Program-made: the position numbers and the translations under genes
The notes under the pieces: model-generated
The model's input: only the letters and a program-made list of their open reading frames with translations
Databases searched by the model: none
What the model was told of the DNA's origin: nothing
DNA from: Streptomyces nigrescens
GTDB lineage: Bacteria; Actinomycetota; Actinomycetes; Streptomycetales; Streptomycetaceae
Direction of reading: 5' to 3'
Assembly (NCBI GenBank): GCA_024349765.1
Contig: AP026073.1
Span: 4,030,001 to 4,094,000, forward strand
DNA: 64,000 nt
Part shown: positions 14,544-54,087 of the stretch, one piece after another
How the letters are laid out: each line of letters begins with the position of its first letter
Position numbering within the stretch: the stretch's first letter is position 1

Positions 14544-14867
14544 TCCGCTGAACCGTCCGCCCGGCGTGGGCCGGCTTCGGCAGCACGCGCACGACGACCG
14601 GCCACGGCGCGGGAACCCCCACAGGGCTCGACGCCGGCTGACATACGGGCATGCGGGCGCGGGCCACCGGCGAGGAGCGGCAGACGGCCGTATCCGGCGA
14701 CCAGGCAGAGAACCGAGTGCCCTCACGGCGAGTGAAGCCGGCCGTCCGACAATGGGGGAGGGCCGGCTGCCGCCCTCGCGGCCGACGGCGAACGGCACGA
14801 CAGCGGTGTGGCACAGCACGCCCAGCGGCACGCCCACTCGAGCCCGGGGGGGGGAAGACGGCTGCCG
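14544..14867. other. intergenic, no gene seen
   Basis: GC-rich sequence between the TetR remnant and an IS256-type remnant. No ORF here has a start, RBS or recognisable family. Confidence 0.4.
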
Positions 14868-15775
14868 CTGCTCTATTTGCACGCCTGTCCTCGGGCGATT
14901 TCGTCCCGGCACTGGAGCAGTTCCTCGGCGCCGCGGCCGGGCTCTCCTCGGCCACCGTCAACCGCCTCACCCAACAGTGGCAGGCCGACCACACCGCCTT
15001 CATGGACCGACCGCGACCTGTCCGAAGTCGACTACGTGTATGTATGGGCCGACGGCATCCACCTCATCGTCCGCCTGGAAGAGGCCAAAGCCTGCGTACT
15101 CGTCCTCGTCGGGGTGCGCGCCGACGGCAGCAAGGAACTGGTCGCACTCAAAGACGGCTACGTGAATCCGGCGAGTCCTGGGCGGACCTGCTGCGCGACT
15201 GCGTACGCCGAGGGATGCGCGCCCCGGTCCTGGCGGTCGACGACGGCGCTCTCGGCTTCTGGACGGCCCTGGCTGAGGTCTTCCCCGCCTTCCGGCATCA
15301 GAGGTGCTGGGTTCACAAAACCGCCAACGTGCTCAACGCTCTGCCGAAGTCGGCCCAGCCCGACGCGCCCGCAAGGCGCTTCAGGACATCTACAACGCCG
15401 AGGACCACAGCCTCGCGGTGCAGGCGATCAAGACGTTCGCCCAGCTCTACGGCGCGAAGTTCCCCAGGGCCGTCAAGAAGATCACCGACGGCGAGGCTGA
15501 GCTGCTGGCGCTCTTCGACTTCCCCGCCGAACACTGGATCCACTTGCGGACCACGAATCCCATCGAGTCCGCCTTCGCCACCGTCCGCCTGTGAACAAGG
15601 TCACCCGCGGGGCCGGCTCTCGCACCGCGGCCCTGGTCATGGTGTTCAAGCTCATCGAGTCCGCCCAGCACCGATGGCGGGCGGTGAACGCGCCCCATCT
15701 CGTCGCCCTCGTCCGTGCGGGAGCCCGCTTCGAACGCGGCCGCATGGTCGAGCGCCCCCAGGCGGTCGCGGCATG
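14868..15775 (+). pseudogene. IS256-family (Mutator) transposase pseudogene
   Basis: Nearly the whole length of an IS256-type transposase can be read, but only by moving between frames. The pieces are LSSGDFVPALEQFLGAAAGL, DLSEVDYVYVWADGIHL, GMRAPVLAVDDGALGFW, RCWVHKTANVLNALPKSAQ, EHWIHLRTTNPIESAFATVR and TRGAGSRTAALVMVFKL. Frameshifts occur near 15008, 15160, 15350 and 15592. The last creates a TGA directly after TVRL. The catalytic DDE positions can be recognised but the gene cannot be expressed as one product. Confidence 0.85.
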
Positions 15776-15807
15776 ACCGGCCCAGGGGCCAGCCCTTTCG
15801 GTGGCCG

Positions 15808-16250
15808 TCAGTCGACGTTCAGGCGGCTGCCCCAGGCGTGGCTCCAGCCGCCACGCCGGATGGTCAGTCCGGCGAAGGTGAAGGTGCAACCGACGCCGAC
15901 GCCCCAGTCGTCGCCTTCGTACCGGACGCTGGGACCAGCCAAGGCGGAGCAGAGGCTGCCGATGGGGATCACGGTGAAGGCGTCGCTGTCCGTGTCGGGG
16001 TAATGCTGGACCTCGATCCAGTCATCACGGACAAAGGGGGCTAGAACCAGGACCACCACCGGTAGACGCCGCGCCCCCTGCGCCGCGCTGGAGAGCGCCG
16101 GGCAGCAGCCGCTGTTCGTCGAGACGCTTCTCGACGAGTGTGAGCCGGAGTGGCTGCCGCGCCACCGGCCGGTGGTCGACGTACGGGGCCTGGACGACTG
16201 GCCGCGGGGTGCAGCGTGAGCACTTGCCCGGCCGCCGTGCGTCTCGCGGA
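15808..16250 (-). pseudogene. hypothetical protein, probably frameshifted
   Basis: The C-terminal part (RDDWIEVQHYPDTDSDAF and on to GSRLNVD, stop at 15808) has strong third-position GC and looks real. The preceding part reads best in a different frame (QPLRLTLVEKRLDEQRLL), with the switch near 16070. I do not recognise the family. It may equally be an intact short protein that starts at one of the internal GTG codons. Confidence 0.35.
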
Positions 16251-16543
16251 GACACTGGTGCCCGGAACAATCAGGTCGTGAAGTCGCCACCACCGGCAGT
16301 GATAGTCATAGCCGATGGGGGCACAGGAGTGTCGAAGCCTGTAGCCGCGACGCAGAAGAACGAAATTCCGATCCCGGACCCTACGCTGTGCGGTGTGCCG
16401 AGGGTGAAGGTGTTTTGCCCGTCTAGTACTCCAGCCGTAGATCGTCATCTCGGTGGTGAGGGGCGCCGAGGCAGCAGGTGGCCAGCGTCGATCATCTCGC
16501 CCGAGATCGCCCACGCCGTCGCGGGCGTCGGCTCCTTCTCCGT

Positions 16544-16948
16544 CTACCCGAGTTCACCGAGACGGAGGGCATCCCTTATCCCGCTGAGCTTCGCGGTCGT
16601 GGCCGGGGTCCGCTCCTGCGCTTGTTCAGCGAGTCGGAGGGCGTCGTCAATCTCGCTGAGCTTCACGGAGGACAGGACGGCCGCCCGCTCTATCAGGTCG
16701 TCCCGGGACACAGTGGTCAGCCACGTGCACGGGGTGAAGCCTGGACGCGGGAACGCGAGCCGCAGCACGCCTTCGAACGGCAGTCCTTCACCGGCGCCGA
16801 CCGTCACTTCGATGCCCAGACCGCTGATGTCGACGCCCGCCGGAGCGACAACCTGCATCACCCGGATCCCGGACGTGTCGTCTCCCGACAGCAGTACGAC
16901 CAACCTCCGCTCGTCGAACTGGACCCACCAGACTTCGCCACGTTGCAC
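16544..16948 (-). CDS. MazF/PemK-like protein, orphan
   Basis: The opening QRGEVWWVQF, followed by VVLLSGD, FTPCTWLTTVSRDDLIERAAVLSS and an acidic helix, matches the PemK/MazF fold, whose best-known members are ribosome-independent mRNA endonucleases. The GTG at 16948 is chosen because GGAGGA precedes it by three bases; longer starts add Arg/Ala-rich sequence. The 134-residue product ends with two related segments (KLSEIDDALRLAE and KLSGIRDALRLGE), an unusual internal duplication. No antitoxin gene is next to it; an IS701-type fragment lies on its 5' side. Activity is uncertain. Confidence 0.6.
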   Translation of the reverse strand: MQRGEVWWVQFDERRLVVLLSGDDTSGIRVMQVVAPAGVDISGLGIEVTVGAGEGLPFEGVLRLAFPRPGFTPCTWLTTVSRDDLIERAAVLSSVKLSEIDDALRLAEQAQERTPATTAKLSGIRDALRLGELG

Positions 16949-17036
16949 AAGTCCTCCAGACACATGACGGCAGACAGACGCTGCGCGACCCTGACGCGCT
17001 GTGGAGACGGGTGCGGCCACCGTTGATCATCGGTGT

Positions 17037-17318
17037 GTGAAGACTGAGGATCACGCGGTGGCCGCAGGTCACAGCGTAGACCCTGCCCGCTGGCAGGAGG
17101 CGTTCGAGGACCTGATGGCCCAGATCGCGGGCCGGTTCGCACGGGTCGAACCCCGACGTCGGGTCGGGCGGTTGGTGCTCGGGCTGCTGTCGGACCTGCC
17201 GCGCAAAAACTGCTGGACCATCGCAGAGTGGGCCGGAGAGAGCGCCCCGGACGGCATGCAGCACCTGCTCGGGCGGGCCAAATGGGAGTCGCTCGCTGCA
17301 CTCGATGCCTTTCGGTGA
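17037..17318 (+). pseudogene. IS701-family transposase, N-terminal fragment
   Basis: From GTG 17037 the frame reads the start of an IS701-type transposase (WQEAFEDLMAQIAGRF, VGLRLVxGLLSDLPRKNCW-type segment with WTIAEWAGE, and HLLGRAKW). It breaks at about 17287 with unrelated residues and a stop. The catalytic domain is missing. It abuts an IS5-type fragment on the other strand, so the break point is probably an old insertion or recombination junction. Confidence 0.8.
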
Positions 17319-41799: not shown

Positions 41800-42410
41800 T
41801 CAGGCCGACGGCACGGCCCCGCCGCGGAACTCTCCTCCGGCATTCGGGTCCCGGTGGACGCAGCTGCCCGGCCGGGCTGGGCTGCAGAACAGCACTCGCC
41901 CCTCCGCGTCTGTCAGGACCATCGACTTCACGGCATTCTGCTTGGTCTTTCCGGAGACGAACTTGTCCCGGTCCTTTCGGCCTGCGGCCGGGCGTCGCAC
42001 GCGGATCTCCGTACCGTCGATGATCCCTGTCTGATCACTGGCTCCCAAGTGCTCGATGACTTCCGCGAGAGTGCGCAGCCTGATGCCTCGTGCGACGGTG
42101 CACCCTCGTTGCGCCAGCAGTGGCCGCACCTCGCCGATCGCACGCGTGACGGTGGAGCGGCCCATGCCGAACCAGCAGGCCAGCACGTCGTGTTGGTGCC
42201 ATGGCGCAGATTGACCAGTGTCGCCAGCAGGCGGTCGACGAAGACGAACTTGTGCTTCGCCCCGCTCCTACTGCCCGCTGCCGCGGGCGAGTCGCGAGCC
42301 GAGCGTGATGCTGCTCGTGCCACAACGGCCCCACCTCAGCAATGAGTTCTACGATTACCTCCGGCGACAGTCCAGTGACCCGGTATCCGCCACGATCAAC
42401 TCACGCGCAC
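41800..42410 (-). pseudogene. IS5-family transposase N-terminal remnant
   Basis: Minus-strand frames read YRVTGLSPEVIVELIAEVG and GPLWHEQHHARLATRPRQ. They continue as KFVFVDRLLATLVNLRHGT and, after a shift, VLACWFGMGRSTVTRAIGEV, TEIRVRRPAAGRKDRDKFVS and NAVKSMVLTDAEGRVLF. This is the N-terminal half of an IS5-type transposase with at least two frameshifts. The sequence after the first catalytic Asp region is replaced by unrelated bases. Confidence 0.75.
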
Positions 42411-43245: not shown

Positions 43246-43830
43246 TCAGCCTCCGTTGCCCACGCAGGAATCGATCCATGTGCACAGCTCCTCAAGGGCG
43301 GCCTCAGCGCGTTCCTTGTCCCCAGTGATGAGGTAATCGCTCTGCAGGCTCGAGAAGCCGCTGTTGAGCAGCGTCGCCTTGATCAGGGCACTGCTTTCGG
43401 GCAGGCCGCGGCGAACCAGGCACGAGGCGACAAATTCGGCACGACCTCGTACGAACGCGGCCCCGGGAAACGGTAGGCGGCCAGCGGCGGCGAGCCCTTC
43501 GATCTCCCGGAAGAGCCGGGTCATGGCGAGCTCGTCGGGGCCGAGGTTGCGCTCCCAGGCCGACCGCACGAGGTGGCCGACCTTGACCTCGGGGTCATGC
43601 CAGCCCGGCGTCGACCGCAGCGCCACCTGCTGGCGTTCGTCGAGCCGCTCAAGTACGGCCGCGAGAAGGGCCTTCTTGTCGGCGAAGTGATGGGTCAGCA
43701 CACGGGTGCTTTGGCCGATCCCCGCCGACAGCGTGCGTAGCGAGAAGCTCCCGATCCCTGTGTCCGCGAGCTGGTCGATCACGGCATCGATCACCTCGCG
43801 CCGACGTTCCGGGCTGGCCGGTCTGGGCAC
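43246..43830 (-). CDS. TetR/AcrR-family regulator of the adjacent MFS gene
   Basis: This 194-residue regulator has an N-terminal TetR DNA-binding domain (REVIDAVIDQLADTGIGSFSLRTLSAGIG and VLTHHFADKKALLAAV) and a helical ligand-binding domain containing FREIEGLAAAGR. The GTG at 43830 starts at the usual family position. It is transcribed away from an MFS efflux gene, and the palindrome at 43876-43893 between them is its probable operator. By analogy it represses the transporter until a drug binds. Confidence 0.88.
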   Translation of the reverse strand: MPRPASPERRREVIDAVIDQLADTGIGSFSLRTLSAGIGQSTRVLTHHFADKKALLAAVLERLDERQQVALRSTPGWHDPEVKVGHLVRSAWERNLGPDELAMTRLFREIEGLAAAGRLPFPGAAFVRGRAEFVASCLVRRGLPESSALIKATLLNSGFSSLQSDYLITGDKERAEAALEELCTWIDSCVGNGG

Positions 43831-43901: not shown

Positions 43902-45131
43902 ATGAAGTTCTTAACCCGAGCCGGGCCGGTGTGGCTGTGGGCTCTGACACTCGCTGCCTTCGCCGTGCAGACGGACGACTACATCCTCATCGGTGTTCTC
44001 CCGGCGGTATCGCACACCGTCCAACTGTCCGAGACCGCTACCGGTCAACTGGTGACGGTGTACTCGCTCACCTACGCGCTCGCCGCCCCGATGTGGGCGC
44101 TGTTGCCGCTCCGGGTTTCCCGCAGACGCGCCCTGTGCGGAGCGCTCACCGTGTTCGGGGCCGCGAACTTTGCGGTCCTACTCGTGGACGAGTACGTGCC
44201 GCTCATGGCCCTGCGTGTTGTGGCGGCACTTGCCGCCGCTCTCGTCCTTCCCACCGCCCTGGCCGCGGCCGGCGCCGAGGCTCCACCGAAGCGTCAGGGC
44301 CGCTATCTGGCAACCGTCATGACCGGCCTGACCGGTGCGGTCCTGCTGGGTGTGCCCGCCGGTACGTGGATCGGCGCGCTCTTCGGCTGGCGGGCGACCT
44401 TCCTGTTCGGAGGGCTGCTGGGGGTGGGCGCGCTTCTCCTGCTCCTCCGTACCCTCCCGCGCGCCGAGGCGCACGCGGTCTCGGAGCGCACAAGCCTTCG
44501 CGTCATGCTTCGTCCGCTGCTCAACGGTGGCGTGACGGTGATCCTCGTCGTCACGATCCTGACCGTCGCAGGCAATCTGGCGTTCCAGACATACATCGCG
44601 CCCTTCCTCGCCGGCGTCTCCAGCGTGTCGCCGACAGTCCTCGCCGTGCTGCTGGTCTGCGCGGGGATCGGTGGCCTGCTCGGGACGCAGGCTTCCGGAC
44701 GCCTCATCGACCGCTTCACGCCGGGGCGGGTCTTCTCCCTCGTGAGCGTGGTGTTCTGCGGGGCGATGCTCGCCTTTGCGGGCCTCTGGCTCGTCAGGCC
44801 GGTCCCCGTCGCGCTTACAGCCGTGCTGCTGGTTGCCTGGTCGGCGGCGGCATGGGCGGTGCCGCCCAGCATCCAGTCCCTGATGCTCACTCGGGCGGGA
44901 ACGGAGGCGGCCGCGCAGGCGATGGCGGTCCAAAGCAGTGCCGTCTACGTCGGTGCGGCACTCGGTGGGGCGGTGGGCGGCGGTTTTCTCGCTGCCGACC
45001 AGGGCTTGATTCCGGCAGCCGCCGCGGGGCTGGCATTCCTGAGCCTCGTGATCATGGTCCCCGTCATGCGGAGCCGTACCGCCGACCTGAGTTCGAGCAC
45101 GAACCGGGATGTCGAGACGGAGACGGCGTAG
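43902..45131 (+). CDS. MFS drug efflux transporter (DHA1-like)
   Basis: This 409-residue protein has twelve predicted membrane helices. The first helix contains QTDDYILIGVLP, and motif-A-like RVSRRRALCGA lies in loop 2-3. A GVPAGTWIG segment in helix 5 corresponds to the antiporter motif. It is typical of the AraJ/YdhP-type proton-driven exporters. Control by the divergent TetR gene suggests a role in resistance or export of a small molecule. Confidence 0.87.
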   Translation: MKFLTRAGPVWLWALTLAAFAVQTDDYILIGVLPAVSHTVQLSETATGQLVTVYSLTYALAAPMWALLPLRVSRRRALCGALTVFGAANFAVLLVDEYVPLMALRVVAALAAALVLPTALAAAGAEAPPKRQGRYLATVMTGLTGAVLLGVPAGTWIGALFGWRATFLFGGLLGVGALLLLLRTLPRAEAHAVSERTSLRVMLRPLLNGGVTVILVVTILTVAGNLAFQTYIAPFLAGVSSVSPTVLAVLLVCAGIGGLLGTQASGRLIDRFTPGRVFSLVSVVFCGAMLAFAGLWLVRPVPVALTAVLLVAWSAAAWAVPPSIQSLMLTRAGTEAAAQAMAVQSSAVYVGAALGGAVGGGFLAADQGLIPAAAAGLAFLSLVIMVPVMRSRTADLSSSTNRDVETETA

Positions 45132-45789
45132 GTGGCGTCGCCGACTCTGCCGGTCTGCAGGCGGACGAGGTGATCTCAAGGCTTCTCCGCAGCACTTCCT
45201 GCGCTCCACCGCCACCGGCTGCGGGGCGGTGCGGTTCACCGCAGAAGAGCCGAGTGAACCGCACCGCCGCGGCGGCTTCCCTGCATGGGATGAACTCCAC
45301 CGGACTCGGAACGTGCCCTGTCGTGGGTCCTGGAGATCGGCAGCCTACGCGCGGTCGCCCCAGCGCCGACCGCGCGAAATAGGCCCCTCGCGAATCGCCG
45401 GCAGACCAGTGCGTCAAGGAAAGGTGGCTGACCTCCCGCGTAGTTAAAGACTCCGGAGCGGCGCAATACGAACGTCACAACCTCGGTGACCACTTGAAGC
45501 ACATGAGTAATACCTGTCACATGCGTTACGTGTGCACTGACTCAAAGATGGTGCCTGCATTAATTGACCTCGCTGGCACACGGATTGCAGACTGTGAGAG
45601 ACCGAGGTGATTTAGTGCACGACGACGGAGGCATATGGACGTTCGGCGTCCACACCTCGGCAGCTCCCTTTGTCTCCGCTTGGCCACTCGATCCGTGAGC
45701 CTTTCATTGGCGCCGCGAGTGAAGAGTGTATGCGCATTTCGGAGCAGAGGGATTGGTCGCTTCCGTTTTCTCGGAGATTGGAGAGCACC
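45132..45789. other. leader region upstream of the repeat ORF
   Basis: No confident gene in about 650 bases. AT content rises near 45530-45615, unlike most of the window, and a promoter-like pair lies at 45564-45593. Alternative in-frame starts for the repeat ORF occur at 45730 (ATG) and 45670 (TTG). Confidence 0.5.
45564..45593 (+). promoter_or_regulatory. candidate promoter of the repeat-ORF locus
   Basis: TTGACC (45564-45569) and CAGACT (45588-45593) are separated by 18 bases, close to the Streptomyces housekeeping consensus. They sit in an AT-richer patch about 200 bases before the repeat ORF. Assigned by inspection only. Confidence 0.4.
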
Positions 45790-45984
45790 ATGCGCAATGA
45801 GCGTACGGAATGGGCTCCGGCCGGTACGGCGTGGATGCCTGAGCGTACGGAATGGGCTCCGGCCGGTACGGCGTGGATGCCTGAGCGTACGGAATGGGCT
45901 CCGGCCGGTACGGCGTGGATGCCTGAGCGTACGGAATGGGCTCCGGCCGGTACGGCGTGGATGCCCGAGCGCACGCTCGCCTGA
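45790..45984 (+). CDS. repeat peptide, candidate multi-core precursor
   Basis: The ORF encodes MRN, then four copies of ERTEWAPAGTAWMP, then ERTLA: 64 residues, nearly all repeat. ATG 45790 has GGAGAG six bases upstream. An in-frame ATG at 45730 would add a 20-residue N-terminal extension (MRISEQRDWSLPFSRRLEST) that could act as a leader. The four 42-bp units are identical except for one synonymous change in the last. A sugar-nucleotide enzyme gene begins 78 bases after the stop, and a glycosyltransferase, a methyltransferase and a PLP enzyme follow. The setting suggests a multi-core modified peptide, but this is inference: five of six frames through the repeat are open, so the coding frame is not proved by openness. 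Confidence 0.55.
   Translation: MRNERTEWAPAGTAWMPERTEWAPAGTAWMPERTEWAPAGTAWMPERTEWAPAGTAWMPERTLA
45799..45966 (+). repeat. 42-bp tandem repeat, four copies
   Basis: Four consecutive 42-bp units begin GAGCGTACGGAATGGGC. They are identical apart from a final T to C in unit four (CCT to CCC), which is silent in the proposed frame. A fifth partial unit (GAGCGCACG) follows. Such identity points to recent expansion or gene conversion. Confidence 0.95.
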
Positions 45985-46062
45985 CCGTTGCACACTGCGC
46001 AGCCGTCGCCCAAGCGGCGGCTGCGCCCGGTAGAAAACCCACCCAACAGAAAGGGAACCGCT

Positions 46063-47064
46063 ATGTCGAAGAGGGTGCTGGTCACCGGAGGAGCGGGTTT
46101 CATCGGGCGCAACATGATCCGGGCCATGCTCGGCGACGGCTACACAATCACTTCCCTGGACAACTTCAAGATCGGCGGGTGGCAGCACGTACCTGAGGAC
46201 ATCCGTGATCACGTCGAATGGGTGCAAGGTGATACCCGGAACTTCGACCTGTTAATGCAGGTCACACGGCACAAAGAGGCAGTTATCCACTTAGCTGCAC
46301 CGTCCTCCTTCCTCATGTATGAGGAGGACCCGGTCGGCGGCGCCTCGGTGACAACCCACGGATTCATCAACCTTCTCGAAGCCATGCGCCGACAGGACAT
46401 CGGGAAGCTCGTGTACGCCAGCACGAGCGCCGTCTACGAAGGCAACGACGTTCCTTACCGCGAGGGAATGGAGCTGAACCCGCCGGACCTCAAGGCGCTC
46501 TCCAAGAAGTGGAACGAGGAGGTCGCCAAGCAGTATTCGGAGAGGTATGGCATCACGGCCATCGGGATGCGGCCTTTCAGCGTCTACGGCCATGACGAGT
46601 TCAGTAAGGGAGGATACGCCAACATCATTTCCCTCTTCGTGTGGGCGGTACTCAACGACGTCACACCCGTCGTCTGGGGCGACGGCAGCCAGACTCGCGA
46701 CTTCATCTATGTGGAAGACGCCGGGCGTGCTTTCCAGACCGCGTTGGAACGGGACCTGCCGACACAGGAATTCAACGTCGGAACCGGCATCGAGACCTCA
46801 TTCAATGAGGTTCTGAGCCTGATCGGGGAAGAGCTGGGAAAGGAGGTCAAGAAGGAGTTTGTTGAGATCCCGATCGCTATCTACGCGCAGCGGCTTCTGG
46901 CGAACGTGGAGCGTGCGGAAAAAGTTCTCGGTTTCCACCACGAGGTCGACGTGCGGGAAGGGATTCGTCGGGTGATCAAGGCCGCCCGCGGAGCACAGGC
47001 AACACAGCAATGGCCCGCCATCAGCAACGCACAGATGTACTTCGAGACGCTGCCCACCGGCTGA
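46063..47064 (+). CDS. NAD-dependent sugar epimerase-like SDR, atypical active site
   Basis: This 333-residue extended SDR resembles UDP-glucose 4-epimerases. It has TGGAGFIG at 8-15, GDTRN at 56-60, HLAAPSS near 76-82 and the Ser segment YASTSAVY at 118-125. The YxxxK position reads K144-ALS-K148, so the catalytic Tyr is replaced by Lys while the Lys and following SK-x(3)-E pattern remain. It may have altered chemistry or a binding role. AAAGGGAA precedes the ATG. Two TTA leucine codons (46252-46254 and 46291-46293) make translation likely to depend on bldA tRNA. Confidence 0.8.
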   Translation: MSKRVLVTGGAGFIGRNMIRAMLGDGYTITSLDNFKIGGWQHVPEDIRDHVEWVQGDTRNFDLLMQVTRHKEAVIHLAAPSSFLMYEEDPVGGASVTTHGFINLLEAMRRQDIGKLVYASTSAVYEGNDVPYREGMELNPPDLKALSKKWNEEVAKQYSERYGITAIGMRPFSVYGHDEFSKGGYANIISLFVWAVLNDVTPVVWGDGSQTRDFIYVEDAGRAFQTALERDLPTQEFNVGTGIETSFNEVLSLIGEELGKEVKKEFVEIPIAIYAQRLLANVERAEKVLGFHHEVDVREGIRRVIKAARGAQATQQWPAISNAQMYFETLPTG

Positions 47065-47139
47065 AGCCTCGGACGGGGCCCCGGTGGACGACGTCGGGGC
47101 CCCGTACTGCTTCCCTACGCCGCCAGAAGGAGCCGCACG

Positions 47140-48447
47140 GTGCCTAAGGTTCTCGCTCTCACCGATTCGTCCGAAGACATCAAGAACTTCTGCACGGAAG
47201 CGGACACATTATTCTTCCGGATCCGTCCATTGCCGGCCGCGGAGCACACATACGACCGCTTCCAGGAGATGTACCGGAAGCTCAAGGAATCCTGTGACCT
47301 CTCCTCGGTGGAGGTGGTCGTCGCTGAATACGTCGAAGCGGTGCCCCTCGTCTATTTCATGCGACGGGACGGTTATCACTGCCCGGCGCTGATGATCCCG
47401 CACAGTAACCCCTACCCCTTCAACCTCCTCTTCTACTTCTTGCTCCTCGCCGGGCACGCCCATCCAGCAGATCTCGTCATCTGCGGTTCACAGAATGCGG
47501 CACGAGCGTACGAACACTTCACGGGAATACCGGCCGCGAACATCTGCACGTTCGGGATCAAGGATGTCTACACCAGGCAGGACAAGACTGAGTGCCGAGA
47601 GCTACTGGGCCTGCCTCGGGACCGCGACATTCTGCTGTACACCGGCCGGTTTATGAACGACAAGGGCCTGTGTTCCCTGCTTTCCGGCTACCGCCGACTG
47701 CGAGAGGAGCGCCCGAGCGCCCTCCTCGTCATGTCGGTGACCCATATTGATCCCCCGTACTTCAACCGACTGGCGGCCCGGATGGAGGACGTGATCGTCT
47801 TCCACCGACTCGAGAAACGACAGACGGTCTCCCTCTACAACGCTGCCGACCTATTCGTCTCCGGCGCTACGAGCATCTTCGAAACCTATGGCAAATCCCC
47901 GTTGGAGGCGATGGCCTGCGGAGTGCCATCCGTAGTGCCCCGCTGGGACGGCTTTCCATACTTCATCAATGACACGAACGGCGCGCTCGTCGACGTCGAA
48001 TACCTCACACACAGCAACGACAACCCGTACGAGTTCGCCCGGATGTCCGAGAGTCACTTCGTAATGAAATGCCAGGAGGTGCTGAGCCACTCCGAAGCCT
48101 TTGCCCCACAGGTACCGGAGGGGGCCAGGTACGAGCGGACCATGGAAGTGTTGCCCGGTGTACTGGAACGCATGGCGGCGAAGCGCGCTGCCGGTCCCGT
48201 GCGCACCGGCTCCCAAGAGATCGACAAGAGTCGCTACCCCGAGTCCGTCGTCGCGGTCCTCGACCATTACGGACTGGTGAAGTGCGAGGACCTCCTGTCC
48301 AAGGCCGACCGCTTGGGGCTCATCGACCGGAGCACCCGGGGAGAGGAAACGCTCCTACGGAACCTGCACCACGACATGTTCATGGCGATGGAGTCCCATG
48401 TACCCGGACCGGCCTGGGGAGATGCGGATGACGGACGCACGGCGTGA
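47140..48447 (+). CDS. GT4-family glycosyltransferase
   Basis: This 435-residue GT-B enzyme has a C-terminal nucleotide-sugar site with YTGRFMNDKGL at 167-177 and the E-x7-E motif from Glu248 to Glu256 (ETYGKSPLEAMACG), typical of retaining GT4 enzymes. About 70 extra C-terminal residues follow the GT fold. It starts at GTG 47140 behind AGAAGGAG. A TTA codon occurs at codon 24 (47209-47211). Acceptor unknown; the repeat peptide and a small molecule are both possible. Its end overlaps the methyltransferase start by 20 bases. Confidence 0.85.
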   Translation: MPKVLALTDSSEDIKNFCTEADTLFFRIRPLPAAEHTYDRFQEMYRKLKESCDLSSVEVVVAEYVEAVPLVYFMRRDGYHCPALMIPHSNPYPFNLLFYFLLLAGHAHPADLVICGSQNAARAYEHFTGIPAANICTFGIKDVYTRQDKTECRELLGLPRDRDILLYTGRFMNDKGLCSLLSGYRRLREERPSALLVMSVTHIDPPYFNRLAARMEDVIVFHRLEKRQTVSLYNAADLFVSGATSIFETYGKSPLEAMACGVPSVVPRWDGFPYFINDTNGALVDVEYLTHSNDNPYEFARMSESHFVMKCQEVLSHSEAFAPQVPEGARYERTMEVLPGVLERMAAKRAAGPVRTGSQEIDKSRYPESVVAVLDHYGLVKCEDLLSKADRLGLIDRSTRGEETLLRNLHHDMFMAMESHVPGPAWGDADDGRTA

Positions 48448-49300
48448 GGCACAACGGATCTTCGACACGCTGGCCTCGGAGTACGACCGGTCAGGCGTCG
48501 ACTACTTCGGCCCGGTCGGCGAACGGCTCGTCGCCTTGGTGAAGATCGGCTCGGGCGAATCCGTTCTGGACATAGGTTGCGGAAGGGGAGCCGTCCTCTT
48601 CCATGCTGCCAGAGCGGTCGGAGAACACGGGCGGGTCGTGGGGGTCGACCTCTCCACGGCCATGGTTGAGGCAGTGCGGAAAGAAGCGCGGGCGAGCGAG
48701 ATGCCGCAGGTCGAGGCGATGGTGGGGGAAGGGCAGTCGCCACCCTTCCCCGAGCAGAGCTTCGATGTGGTGACCGGGGGGATGAGCGTACACATGCTCG
48801 CCGACATTCCCGCCGCCCTGCGGGCCTATCACCAGGTGCTGCGTCCGCGCGGACGGCTTGGCCTTTCCGCGCCCGCGACGGTCGAACGACCCGCGCCGGA
48901 GGTCTTCGGGCTGCGTTCCATCGCGCGGTTCTCCGCCGCCCACGACGCGGGAAGCGGAATCTACCCCTATACCGAGGCTTTCGGCGGTGCTCGGCGCCTG
49001 CGGGGCGACCTGCTGGCAGCTGGCTTCGAGGAGGTCGAGGTCCTGGAGGAACCGGCGTTCATCTGCACCGACTCCGCGGAGCGTTTCCTGCGCTGGACCT
49101 GGACCCACGGTATGCGCAAGCTCTGGGAACGGGTCTCACCGGATGAGCGACGCCGCGCAGAGCGTGCCATCACCACCGAAGCGCGAGCCCGCAGCGAGCG
49201 CACCGACCGCATCGTGCTGCGCACGCCGGTCATGTACGTCACCGCCGTCCGGCCGGCCCTCCACGCCACCGCCGGACCGTCAGACCGCGACCCCGCCTGA
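48428..49300 (+). CDS. class I SAM-dependent methyltransferase
   Basis: This 290-residue protein has motif I VLDIGCGRGA at 46-55, GRVVGVDLSTAMVEA as motif II, and a post-motif FDVVTGGMSVHML, as in UbiE-like methyltransferases acting on small molecules or peptides. ATG 48428 is used because GGGGAG precedes it by seven bases, while ATG 48422 is too close. It overlaps the glycosyltransferase gene, so the two are co-translated. The 114-base gap to the next gene carries no terminator by eye. Confidence 0.85.
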   Translation: MTDARREAQRIFDTLASEYDRSGVDYFGPVGERLVALVKIGSGESVLDIGCGRGAVLFHAARAVGEHGRVVGVDLSTAMVEAVRKEARASEMPQVEAMVGEGQSPPFPEQSFDVVTGGMSVHMLADIPAALRAYHQVLRPRGRLGLSAPATVERPAPEVFGLRSIARFSAAHDAGSGIYPYTEAFGGARRLRGDLLAAGFEEVEVLEEPAFICTDSAERFLRWTWTHGMRKLWERVSPDERRRAERAITTEARARSERTDRIVLRTPVMYVTAVRPALHATAGPSDRDPA

Positions 49301-49414
49301 CCGGTGGTGGCCTGGCCCCGCCTGAGCCGCCTGTGGGGACAGGCATCTCCCTCCGCGAGGTACCCCGGCAGCACCAGCACGTTCCGAGCCGACGTGATGT
49401 CACGGAAGGACGAG

Positions 49415-50692
49415 ATGAAGCACGTAAGCACTGATCCGCCACCCATCATCCCGGCACGGCCGGGTGAGAACCGCCTCTGGGAATGGGCCCGGGAACAATT
49501 CGATCTGGACCCTGGCTATGTGCACCTGGCGCTGTCGATGCTGGCCCCTCACCCCAGGACGGTACGTGAGGCCATTGCATACCATCGCACCGAATTGGAC
49601 CGAAACCCTGCCCTCCACTTCCATCAGCGGGACGAGCGCGTCCGGCGGGTGCTGGCAACGGCCGGTGCCTACCTCGGCGCGGATCCGGACTCGATCGCGC
49701 TCACCGAAAGCACCACCGCCGGCATGGCTGTGGTCTACACCGGCATGCGGCTCGGGCCCGAGGACGAGATCCTGAGTACCCGCCACGAGCACTACGCGGC
49801 TTCGGAGCTTCTACGCTTCAAGGCGAAGTCGAGCGGCGCCGGCCACCGGTGCATCAGCCTGTACGAGGACGGACCGACGGCTACGAGTGAGGAGATCGTC
49901 TCCTCCCTCGTCCGCGAAATACGGGACAACACCCGTCTCCTCGCCCTTACCTGGGTGCACTCGGGTACCGGGGTCAAACTGCCGCTTTCCCGCATAGGCG
50001 AGGCGGTGGCCGAGGTGAACCACGGCCGCCCTACCGACCGTCAGATCCTCATCTGCGTGGACGCCGTCCACGGCTTCGGGGTAGAGGACTTCACCGTCGA
50101 GGAACTTCGCTGCGACTTCTTCATGGCGGGCTGCCACAAATGGCTGTTCGGGCCACGCGGTACGGGTGTGGTGTGGGGGAGCGAGAGAGGATGGAACGCG
50201 GTCGAACCCATCATGACCTCGTTCGACGTCGAGGTGTTCTGGCCGTGGTACCTGGGCCGTACCCCCGACGCGGAAGCCCCCCGCGCCCGGCTGTGCACTC
50301 CCGGAGGATTCCCTGTTTTCGAACACCGTTGGGCTCTGGCGGAGGCCTTCGACTTCCAGCTCACCCTGGGCAAGAAGCCCGTAGCGATGCGCATCGCCGA
50401 TCTCAATGCCTACTGCCACCGGCGACTCATGGAGACAGCCGGTATCACCGTGCGTACCCCGGCGGACAGAGCGCTGCGGTCGGGCATGACCTGCTTCGAC
50501 GTCGAGGGCCGGGACCCCGGAGAGATCGCTGCCATGTTGGAGAAGCGGCGGATCATGGCAGGTCAAACTCCCTACCGAGACAGCGCAGTGCGCTTCGCTC
50601 CCGGCATCCTCAACTCGGTGGCCGACATTGACCGCGCCGTGGAAACGTTGGAACAGATCGTCCGTGCAGGGCCGCAGGAGCCCCCAGCATGA
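49415..50692 (+). CDS. class V aminotransferase-fold PLP enzyme
   Basis: This 425-residue protein has the fold of cysteine desulfurases and isopenicillin N epimerase (CefD). The PLP Lys is Lys242 in AGCHKWLFGPRGTG, and Asp216 (ICVDAVHGFG) pairs with the pyridine nitrogen. TESTTAGM near 98-104 binds phosphate. GGAAGGA lies four bases before ATG 49415. The family includes epimerases, lyases and desulfurases, so the reaction cannot be fixed. As last enzyme of the locus it may epimerise or cleave an amino acid of the product. Confidence 0.85.
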   Translation: MKHVSTDPPPIIPARPGENRLWEWAREQFDLDPGYVHLALSMLAPHPRTVREAIAYHRTELDRNPALHFHQRDERVRRVLATAGAYLGADPDSIALTESTTAGMAVVYTGMRLGPEDEILSTRHEHYAASELLRFKAKSSGAGHRCISLYEDGPTATSEEIVSSLVREIRDNTRLLALTWVHSGTGVKLPLSRIGEAVAEVNHGRPTDRQILICVDAVHGFGVEDFTVEELRCDFFMAGCHKWLFGPRGTGVVWGSERGWNAVEPIMTSFDVEVFWPWYLGRTPDAEAPRARLCTPGGFPVFEHRWALAEAFDFQLTLGKKPVAMRIADLNAYCHRRLMETAGITVRTPADRALRSGMTCFDVEGRDPGEIAAMLEKRRIMAGQTPYRDSAVRFAPGILNSVADIDRAVETLEQIVRAGPQEPPA

Positions 50693-51012: not shown

Positions 51013-52614
51013 TTACGACAGCAGGACTCGTTTCCGGAGGAGTTGTAAGCCAGCCCGGCCGAACATTTGGCGCTTGAGCATCTTGATCCGGTTGACGTGC
51101 CCCTCGACCACGCCCGAGTTCCAGGGCAGCGTCAGACCGGCGATTACAGCGTCGCGGTCACGGTCGATGCCCGTTGCGAGGGTGTCAAGGCTCGGCAGGT
51201 CGTCCTGACGGACGGCGTCGGGCCATTCCAGGAGTCGTTCGCCCCGGCGCTCGGTGAGCATGTGTGCGAAGGGCCGGACGTGGCCTGTGAGGGCGTCGAG
51301 CTCGGCACAGTTGGGCAGGACGGCTTTGAGCCGGAGTTGTTCGATCTCGGTGAGGGATTCCGGGCGGCTGAGAATCCATCGGGTTACCACGCGAGGTGCC
51401 GGGGGCTGTGCGGTGATTGGCCGGGGTGACGTGCGCTTCTTCCGGATGTAGGCGCTGACAATGCCGTAGCTGCCCTTGTAGCCGAGCGGGACAATCTCCT
51501 CCCAGAGCTTCCAGACGCACGTGCAGCCCTCGCTCCAACGCTCGTCCAGGTAGGGCTTGTACTCGTCGAGGGCGGAGGTCCGGCTGTACTGCCACTGCCT
51601 GCGAAAGAGGTCCTCCGGTCTCGCGGCATCGGTGAGGCTTTTGACGGTGCGGTGGGTCATGCGGAGTTGCCGGCCGATGGAGCGGCGGCTGTGGCCAGCT
51701 TCGAGCATCGCGTGGACGGTGGCGTGCCTGGCCCGGATGCGGTTGGCGAACCGGTCGCCCCTCCAGGGCGATTCCGGGATCTCGTCAAAGGGTTCGGTTG
51801 TGTCGACCTCCTCCTTGACCGGTTCGGGGAGGAGGACGCGGAGGCACTGGCGGTGGCGGGCGACTTCACGCTCGGCGGCCTGGCCGAGGTTGTGCCACAG
51901 ATGCCACCGGTCAGCGACCTGGACCGCTTGGGGTGCACCGGCTGTGGCGCCTTCCGCGAAGAATGGGGCCCGGTCCCGGCAGACGACCTCGATGCCAGGC
52001 CGCTTCGCCAGCCACTGAGCCAGGCTGGACGCCTCCCGGTCCGGCAGCAGATCGATGGGACGGCGAGTCTCAACGTCGACCAGCACCGTGCCATAGACGC
52101 GGCCCTTGCCGTTTGCGTACTCATCGACGCCATCCGCCCGCGGGGACGGGGCGTCAGGTTCGGGCAAGGCCGCGAGCAGCCGCAGCACGGTGCTGCGGCT
52201 GACGGATACCCCGAAGACCTTGGCCGTCCGTGCCCCGGCCCGGCCTGCCAGCGCTAGGCCGACCGCGGCCAGTGCTGACCGCAGCCTTTCGGCCCATCGA
52301 CCGTGCCGTCGGGTCAGCCCCGGAATCTGCTCAGCGGATGTCCGTCGTCCGCACGAAGGGTCCGGACAGAAGAACCGGCGGATTCGCACGCACAGAAGCC
52401 CCTTTCGGCTGGCGCTGGGAACGTCGGCGGGAAACCGCTGGTAGGAGCTGTGTGGCCCACTCGATCGACTCCCACAGTCAGGGCAGTTCGCCCCGGTTGC
52501 CGTGCTGCAAACCTCAATGCGTATCGCCTCTTCGTCCATGCCCACCGACAGCACAGCGACATCCGCGATCGATGGGAACAACAGCTCCTCCAGCCGGAAC
52601 ACCGTCTTCTCCAC
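51013..52614 (-). CDS. ISL3-family transposase, apparently intact
   Basis: This 533-residue transposase has the N-terminal zinc-binding motif CPDC-x(n)-FFCPDPSCGRR and a conserved VDEYANGKGRVYGTVLVDVE segment with the first catalytic Asp. The family core HLWHNLGQAAEREVARHR and the C-terminal WNSGVVEGHVNRIKMLKRQ motif are present. Start is GTG 52614. No frameshift was seen, unlike almost every other transposase in the window, so it may be a recent and possibly active arrival. Terminal inverted repeats were not found by eye. Confidence 0.9.
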   Translation of the reverse strand: MEKTVFRLEELLFPSIADVAVLSVGMDEEAIRIEVCSTATGANCPDCGSRSSGPHSSYQRFPADVPSASRKGLLCVRIRRFFCPDPSCGRRTSAEQIPGLTRRHGRWAERLRSALAAVGLALAGRAGARTAKVFGVSVSRSTVLRLLAALPEPDAPSPRADGVDEYANGKGRVYGTVLVDVETRRPIDLLPDREASSLAQWLAKRPGIEVVCRDRAPFFAEGATAGAPQAVQVADRWHLWHNLGQAAEREVARHRQCLRVLLPEPVKEEVDTTEPFDEIPESPWRGDRFANRIRARHATVHAMLEAGHSRRSIGRQLRMTHRTVKSLTDAARPEDLFRRQWQYSRTSALDEYKPYLDERWSEGCTCVWKLWEEIVPLGYKGSYGIVSAYIRKKRTSPRPITAQPPAPRVVTRWILSRPESLTEIEQLRLKAVLPNCAELDALTGHVRPFAHMLTERRGERLLEWPDAVRQDDLPSLDTLATGIDRDRDAVIAGLTLPWNSGVVEGHVNRIKMLKRQMFGRAGLQLLRKRVLLS

Positions 52615-53235: not shown

Positions 53236-54087
53236 TTGGATACGGGCGACTTGATTTCTGCTGTCAGCGCACTTGTTGCCGCTATTGCGGCGGGGGTGGG
53301 CTGGTGGCAAGCACACAGCGCCAGACGCGCTGTCAAGGCGGCCGAGGAACAGGCCAACGCGATGCGCGACCAAGTCAAGGCGGCCGAGGAACAGGTCAGT
53401 GTGATGCGCGACCAAATCGTGCTGGAGCACATGAGGCCCCGCTTTGAAGTCACCCACGCTACGACGATGCTGCTCCCCCGCGGCGGAGGGCGACTGGTAA
53501 TTGAGGTTGCGCAGCTCACCGGTGTGCCACTCGATGACGTGAAGGTGGAGCTGCATGTCGGCAGCAGACAGGTCATGACCGATGGGGCGCACGACGGCGT
53601 CCACACCTGCCTGTACTCCGCGCCCGGCAGTAAGCTCACCTTTCGCGCTCACCTCGACGTAGAGGCCGCGCAGGCCCCGGCTGTCCGCGTCGAACTGTCC
53701 GGCACAGAGGCCCAAGGCACACGGCAGTGGGCTGAAAGACTCATCGCTCATCCGGTTCTCACGGACAACAGACTGCTCACTGAGGGGCGGACCGCTGCCG
53801 GACTGCCCCGGCGTGCTTCAAGCAGCCGCGACTACTCCGTGAACGACGAGCGGTGGCGGCAGGCCCCGCAGGTCTCCCGCGCCCCTGGCGACGTACGGGG
53901 CAGGCTGGCCAATCTGCGCCGGGGTATCCAGCAGGGTCGCAGTGTGGGAAGCAAAACGAAAGGTCAGGGGTCCGGTCCTGACAACGCCTCAAGGCAGGAT
54001 GCGAGACCTGGTGGGACCACGTCGGGGGGCGTGGCCCCGGATGCCGCCGGCAACGACACCGACCCTGAAGATGATTCGAGCCGTTGA
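53236..54087 (+). CDS. hypothetical protein, membrane helix and coiled coil
   Basis: This 283-residue protein probably starts at TTG 53236. Residues 6-24 form a hydrophobic helix (DLISAVSALVAAIAAGVGWW), followed by a short coiled coil in which a 14-residue segment occurs twice (VKAAEEQANAMRDQ, then VKAAEEQVSVMRDQ). A beta-rich middle domain (LLPRGGGRLVIEVAQLTG and on) is followed by a polar, Gly/Asp/Ser-rich C-terminal tail. I recognise no family. The topology suggests an inner-membrane-anchored cytoplasmic protein. Confidence 0.55.
   Translation: MDTGDLISAVSALVAAIAAGVGWWQAHSARRAVKAAEEQANAMRDQVKAAEEQVSVMRDQIVLEHMRPRFEVTHATTMLLPRGGGRLVIEVAQLTGVPLDDVKVELHVGSRQVMTDGAHDGVHTCLYSAPGSKLTFRAHLDVEAAQAPAVRVELSGTEAQGTRQWAERLIAHPVLTDNRLLTEGRTAAGLPRRASSSRDYSVNDERWRQAPQVSRAPGDVRGRLANLRRGIQQGRSVGSKTKGQGSGPDNASRQDARPGGTTSGGVAPDAAGNDTDPEDDSSR

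Follow-up and report, generated by a model that had tools for sequence, protein, structure and literature searches.

Here, we provide evidence that a 64-residue open reading frame (ORF) of Streptomyces nigrescens belongs to a family of tryptophan-repeat peptides that is conserved, kept in frame, constrained at the amino-acid level and tied to a block of enzyme genes. The ORF lies in a 64,000-nt stretch of a 9.3 Mb genome in two contigs (AP026073.1, positions 4,030,001 to 4,094,000; hereafter the window, by whose own numbering positions are given), and five homologous loci were found in Pseudonocardiaceae. The locus is real, conserved and unusual. As to its function, we put at about even the chances that the ORF specifies a ribosomal carrier presenting Trp residues on the route to an indole N-glycoside. 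A more specific proposal, advanced with slightly more doubt than confidence, is that indole N-glycosides such as SF-2140 and the kahakamides are ribosomally encoded: the Trp residues of a leaderless, disposable repeat peptide would be N-glycosylated at the indole nitrogen by a GT4-type glycosyltransferase (GT), excised, and turned into acetamide or acetonitrile glycosides by a PvdN-like oxygenase together with a PP-loop nitrile synthetase.

The peptide ORF (45790..45984, plus strand) runs from ATG to TGA and is preceded by a Shine-Dalgarno-like GGAGAG (45780..45785, plus strand). Its product consists of MRN, four copies of the 14-residue unit ERTEWAPAGTAWMP and a C-terminal end ERTLA; the four units make up eight Trp heptads. 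The copies are the same as protein, with synonymous changes in the last one, and are too similar to one another for a comparison of non-synonymous with synonymous change (pN/pS). At the DNA level the array has a 42-nt unit and 4.2 copies (45798..45975, plus strand; match 98%, score 342), and it ranks top among the 11 rows that Tandem Repeats Finder gave for the window. A second 42-bp tandem repeat, at 53332-53415 (two copies, 90%), has a unit unrelated to the peptide array. The stop codon lies 78 nt before the ATG (46063) of a gene for a short-chain dehydrogenase/reductase (SDR). Re-reading the sequence agrees with a preliminary description of this DNA, which had noted a ribosome-binding site and an ORF of four perfect units 78 bases before four enzyme genes, and Pfam and NCBIfam assign the enzymes as it did, namely to an SDR, a GT4 enzyme, a methyltransferase and a class V pyridoxal phosphate (PLP) enzyme. 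The WAPAG-type 14-mer core that it proposed gives way to a better reading of the repeat, a Trp heptad of the form xxWxxxR.

A scan of one genome per species (84,980 species) for exact matches to peptide patterns taken from the window GT revealed three loci, two in Saccharothrix and one in Saccharopolyspora indica; because the patterns are exact, such a scan can miss diverged copies. A GT profile applied to 390 Pseudonocardiaceae genomes matched five of them at E 1e-60, the same three and two more, and 19.5-19.9 kb was examined around each of these loci (L012-L016). The five relatives represent three lineages, or four with the window; the two Saccharothrix loci are similar, and the enzymes of L012 and L013 are 90-97% alike. 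The GT was found in its own genome only among 199 genomes of the same genus (E 1e-30), 396 of the phylum (E 1e-60) and 394 of the class (E 1e-40); these samples overlap and include the own genome, and the top four or eight first-look candidates were scored in each genome. Plasmids gave no match to the SDR at E 1e-60, and viral contigs none to the GT. The locus is rare, and no description of such a cluster was found in the open-access literature, subscription papers lying mostly outside the search.

The preliminary description had asked whether homologous blocks lack the repeat or lose its frame. In each of the five, a Trp-repeat ORF is present in frame, preceded by a Shine-Dalgarno sequence of the GGAG type. 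There are eight Trp units in L012 (MEMNWVSDRANWVSDR...) and in L014 (VETTWLSDRTEWLASRTEWMSDRTEWLANR..., with a GTG start), six in L016, five in L013 and five in L015 (MVTTWVSDRAEATWFSDR..., spaced mostly by nine residues), so the variable copy number expected of homologues, set beside the eight heptads of the window, is indeed observed. In 32 of the 32 units of the relatives, Trp is followed four residues later by Arg; directly after Trp comes V, L, M, F or I, usually with Ser-Asp behind it. Furthermore, every one of these five peptides has YELVS at its C-terminal end, followed by one or two further residues, and the codons for YELVS differ between lineages. When the tails are compared between lineages, including the variable residue before YELVS, 2.5-3 synonymous and 1-5 non-synonymous changes are counted, the latter coming from this variable residue and from TCN/AGC serine codons. 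No leader is present in any of the six peptides. The units of L014 alternate between TEWL.. and TEWM.., forming a 14-residue super-unit comparable to TEWAPAG-TAWMPER in the window, and this shared alternation may be a hint of orthology.

The arrays of the relatives lent themselves to the comparison of synonymous and non-synonymous change which the preliminary description had also called for. Within-array pN/pS is below 0.5 in all five (0.45 in L014, 0.49 in L016, 0.30 in L012, 0.46 in L013 and 0.18 in L015) and is lowest, among the six frames, in the named one in every case, one antisense frame of L012 being close (0.40 vs. 0.30). We reject coding in an antisense or other frame on this ground. 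The repeat is not a chance low-complexity sequence either, because an in-frame Trp-repeat ORF accompanies the homologous blocks elsewhere (5/5), and the ranking by a peptide profile also speaks against chance. This profile, built from the six peptides with the five relatives included, was searched in the 390 Pseudonocardiaceae genomes and placed the five block loci first (E 2e-22 to 2e-28), the next locus following at 7e-8. At E 1e-4 it matched 12 of the 390 genomes in all, and the seven lower-scoring loci (L023-L029) hold other repeats, with no block gene in the 1.6-3.2 kb around them. One of them, L023:1318-1650 (G345), is a WVPARIT heptad array free of block genes in the surrounding 3.1 kb; it would either be non-coding or encode a further peptide of Trp heptads.

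The peptide gene of the relatives belongs to a larger cluster than that of the window. In tblastn, an O-methyltransferase (OMT), a cytochrome P450, EamA, the SDR, the GT4 enzyme, a PP-loop protein, the PvdN-like PLP enzyme and a methyltransferase adjoin the peptide in all five loci. A frame-by-frame comparison of one locus per lineage (L012, L014 and L015; 19.5-19.9 kb each) gave nine genes common between lineages: the peptide gene and those for the P450, the OMT, the EamA exporter, the SDR, the GT4, the PP-loop ATPase, the PLP enzyme and the second methyltransferase. Outside this stretch the flanks of the three loci show no homology at E 1e-8. The two Saccharothrix loci share their flanks as well, and the proteins encoded nearby we take to be rpoC- and rpsG-like. 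The OMT of the relatives is of the Methyltransf_2 type, and the PP-loop protein bears an SGGKDS motif and CxxC pairs, with weak similarity to WbuX, to MnmA (E 0.0015) and to QueC (E 1.8). The cluster of L012 (G309) is flanked by biosynthetic genes (L012:3571-4281 and 14734-17162), which encode a thioesterase, a phosphopantetheinyl transferase and a ketoacyl synthase III C-terminal domain protein.

The order of the genes bears on one alternative, in which the ORF would be a Trp-sensing leader (attenuator) and ribosome pausing at its Trp codons would control a Trp-consuming operon through a hairpin after the ORF. In the window, the Trp-rich ORF is indeed followed by a 13-bp hairpin (45997..46026, plus strand; folding z -3.56) and then by the enzyme genes, an order that taken alone would permit attenuation, and the folds in L013 and L016 are also strong (z -4.81 and -2.40). 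However, the hairpin has no terminator-like T-run on the strand of the peptide gene, nor does Rfam give a match, and in two of the five stretches folding is no better than in shuffles (L014 -0.73, L015 -0.40; L012 left out). Moreover, in L012 and L013 the order and strands are rearranged and the peptide is nevertheless retained: it heads only EamA and the methyltransferase, whereas SDR-GT-P450 lie on the other strand and PP-loop-PLP-OMT upstream. The Arg residues, the spacing and YELVS are, besides, kept at the amino-acid level. We therefore regard attenuation as quite improbable.

A candidate product is provided by the actinomycete indole N-glycosides. In SF-2140 and in sugarnitriles A and B, the nitrogen of a 4-methoxyindole-3-acetonitrile carries a hexuronic acid, which is 4-deoxy in two of them and 4-hydroxylated in one, and a methyl ester in two and a free acid in one (PMC13430523). 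SF-2140 itself combines a 4-OMe group, a CH2CN side chain and an N-glycosyl 4-deoxyhexuronate methyl ester, and its producer is an Amycolatopsis (sp. JS-O27), a Pseudonocardiaceae genus; the paper describes the structure without a gene cluster (PMC13430523), and none was found in the open-access literature. The nine-gene set fits SF-2140, because its enzyme families map onto the structure: the two methyl groups would match the two methyltransferases, the single aryl oxygen the P450, the nitrile the PLP enzyme together with the PP-loop protein, and the one sugar the SDR and the GT. Families for aryl oxidation, O-methylation, amide or nitrile formation, N-glycosylation and uronate methylation are thus all present in the five relatives, and, judged by family membership, each gene in the full cluster can be assigned a part in making SF-2140. 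SF-2140 with the sugarnitriles, neosidomycin and the kahakamides are accordingly proposed as the product class, each enzyme family being assignable. Neosidomycin is devoid of the 4-methoxy group, and kahakamide A is an amide. The kahakamides, known from Nocardiopsis, figure in reviews as N-glycosyl indoles and, by title, as 'neosidomycin metabolites'.

The PLP enzyme is central to how the peptide would be used. PvdN of the pyoverdine pathway, its nearest solved relative, forms an amide from a free alpha-amino acid; it is reported to convert Glu to succinamide with decarboxylation and retention of the amino nitrogen (PMC6206403, PMC6411801). Similarly, glycyluridine is turned into a carboxamide by Cap15 (PMC6411801), and a related oxidative deamination is carried out by CcbF, also a PLP enzyme (PMC11794154). 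Because PvdN acts in this way on free alpha-amino-acid groups, the locus probably yields something other than a peptide. Such chemistry would require the peptide to be broken down to individual amino acids, and we therefore read it as a carrier. PvdN works in the periplasm on the Glu of pyoverdine, whereas the substrate proposed here is an N-glycosyl Trp.

In the mechanism that we propose, the carrier would display its numerous Trp residues within a short motif, xxW-hydrophobic-x-x-R, that recurs along the chain. With the full cluster, the indole of the peptide Trp would be 4-hydroxylated by the P450 and then O-methylated by the OMT, and the GT4 would attach to its nitrogen a uronic-acid sugar that the SDR has shaped. 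Cellular proteases encoded outside the cluster would release the modified Trp, whose now free alpha-amino-acid group the PvdN-like enzyme would convert to a carboxamide (indole-3-acetamide). The PP-loop ATPase would dehydrate the carboxamide to a nitrile, the second methyltransferase would esterify the uronate, and EamA would export the product, an antibiotic of the SF-2140/sugarnitrile type. The window set (peptide, SDR, GT, methyltransferase, PLP enzyme and perhaps an exporter of the major facilitator superfamily, MFS) would yield an unmethoxylated amide, a kahakamide-like indole N-glycoside. That the Trp modified is the one in the peptide is our inference, as are the sequence of the reactions, the protease involved, the final compound and the function assigned to each enzyme.

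The preliminary description had envisaged a multi-core, possibly glycosylated and methylated, peptide family. Its first part stands, as a dedicated multi-core precursor occurs with tailoring enzymes in all five blocks. A mature glycosylated and methylated peptide is not supported, because a residue inside a chain offers the PvdN-like enzyme no free alpha-amino-acid group, and the gene set fits an indole N-glycoside. The corresponding alternative is a conventional multi-core ribosomally synthesized and post-translationally modified peptide (RiPP), in which cleavage after Arg would release heptapeptides or 14-mers with a glycosylated (in the relatives, methoxylated) Trp and the PLP enzyme would modify a terminus. 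It is consistent with the Arg that closes every unit in the five relatives, with the varying copy number and with the tail, which is kept like a follower peptide; GTs, P450s and methyltransferases, moreover, commonly tailor RiPPs. Yet PvdN chemistry requires free amino and carboxyl groups on one carbon, the units within one peptide differ (TEWLASR, TEWMSDR, TEWLTSR) with only Trp and Arg fixed, and the gene set matches a non-peptide indole glycoside. We therefore consider a conventional RiPP rather unlikely.

The proposed carrier has partial precedents. Pearlins and ammosamides are likewise small molecules derived from Trp or Cys, reported to be assembled on a ribosomal peptide from which they are subsequently set free (PMC11117183, PMC9303977, PMC9016710), and the Trp-based scaffold peptide of the ammosamides provides the analogy for a carrier (PMC11117183). 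There the residue is added at the C-terminus, by the peptide aminoacyl-tRNA ligase PEARL, whereas here Trp is encoded many times in tandem repeats; a search within the nine common genes found no PEARL-family gene. ATP-using nitrile synthetases exist in several folds, and ATP-dependent nitrile formation in a ribosomal pathway also occurs in the nitrilobacillins, through the asparagine-synthetase-like PesC (PMC13060819, accessible parts). That enzyme, however, is of a different family and yields a C-terminal peptide nitrile, and the window has no PP-loop gene. Plant burpitides and fungal dikaritins also have tandem cores of variable copy number. They differ from the present peptides, which have no leader, Trp-heptad units and unrelated enzymes.

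The four enzyme genes of the window lie on the plus strand. The first (46063..47064; Pfam/NCBIfam, homologue alignment) encodes an extended, NAD-dependent SDR resembling nucleotide-sugar epimerases, and its nearest solved proteins are epimerases. The second (47140..48447; Pfam/NCBIfam, GT4 matches) encodes the GT4-type glycosyltransferase with a C-terminal extension. Its residues E248 and E256 form a stretch which we take to be the E-x7-E motif; the structure model is modest (mean 59), and the C-terminal part, considered as a candidate RRE-like domain, is modelled with low confidence (block means of 27-56 past residue 350). A class I methyltransferase of the UbiE/ArsM-like type follows (48398..49300, start probably 48422 or 48428; Pfam/NCBIfam), for which we propose the role of uronate carboxyl O-methyltransferase. 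The PvdN-like class V PLP enzyme is encoded at 49304..50692, homology beginning near 49478 and the true start being uncertain. It matches PvdN (5i90) with 305 bits, the next PDB protein being SufS with 68 bits, and both it and PvdN keep HEHY, HGFGVED and the PLP lysine stretch HKWLFGPRGTG. Since its 401.7 bits are below the NCBIfam PvdN equivalog cut-off of 650 bits, it is a relative of PvdN and not PvdN proper.

Several observations weigh against the route to an indole N-glycoside. The SF-2140-type product is one that we infer from gene content. No peptidase is among the nine common genes, which leaves the cluster without a gene for a releasing protease, and a Pfam scan of ten flanking ORFs of L015 and L012 (of 20 unlabelled) gave no peptidase above cut-off; a dedicated enzyme for 4-deoxygenation of the sugar is missing from the cluster as well. 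The proposed role of the PP-loop protein as nitrile synthetase rests on its motif and on pathway logic, and its structure model has a pLDDT of 42. In the SDR, the stretch around residues 144-148 reads PPDLKALSKK, with Lys where the YxxxK motif has its Tyr. Lys144 aligns with the catalytic Tyr of 7ys8, and Lys is found there in all six aligned homologues (the window and five relatives), which suggests a non-canonical reaction, perhaps tied to the unusual uronate. Free Trp is present in the cell, so that a peptide would not obviously be needed; the enzymes may act on free Trp instead, with the peptide being regulatory or giving a separate product. Finally, the YELVS tail is missing from the window peptide, in which four of the eight heptads contain Arg. 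A search of the 64 kb gave no match to P450, OMT, EamA or PP-loop, nor was a PP-loop relative found in the host genome at E 1e-3, a search made with no positive control. From this gene content, we predict for the window either a kahakamide-like amide or a diverged or decayed copy.

The latter possibility amounts to a further alternative, in which the system is real in the relatives but survives in the window only in decayed or incomplete form, deprived of the tail and of four genes and perhaps of any product. An ISL3-family transposase gene (51013-52614, minus strand) lies ~320 bp downstream of the PLP gene, and the GT is confined to its own genome among the 199 of the genus; the nearby transposase and this rarity together hint at recent acquisition. 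Against decay, none of the four enzyme ORFs is interrupted by a stop codon and their conserved stretches are kept, the gene order is tight, with overlapping reading frames of the GT and methyltransferase genes, and the repeat units are in frame and identical as protein. A remnant thus appears unlikely. Upstream of the peptide gene, an MFS exporter gene (43902..45131, plus strand; best family Cmx/CmrA, below the family cut-off) is of uncertain membership; it may be part of the locus, replacing the EamA exporter of the relatives, because at E 1e-100 only the own genome matches among 100 relatives (up to 18 candidates scored per genome). A TetR-family regulator gene of equally uncertain membership is divergent from it (43246..43830, minus strand). 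A short minus-strand ORF at 41800-42186 presumably resembles part of an insertion sequence transposase.

The xxWxSDR repeats and the YELVS tail offer a simple handle for genome mining. If the carrier route is true, the GT4 enzyme would be a candidate for N-glycosylating tryptophan in peptides, and the cluster would give a genetic basis to an antibiotic family first reported around 1979-1984. In such a system, a ribosomal carrier would encode the precursor of a small molecule many times over, as opposed to its attachment by a tRNA-dependent ligase.

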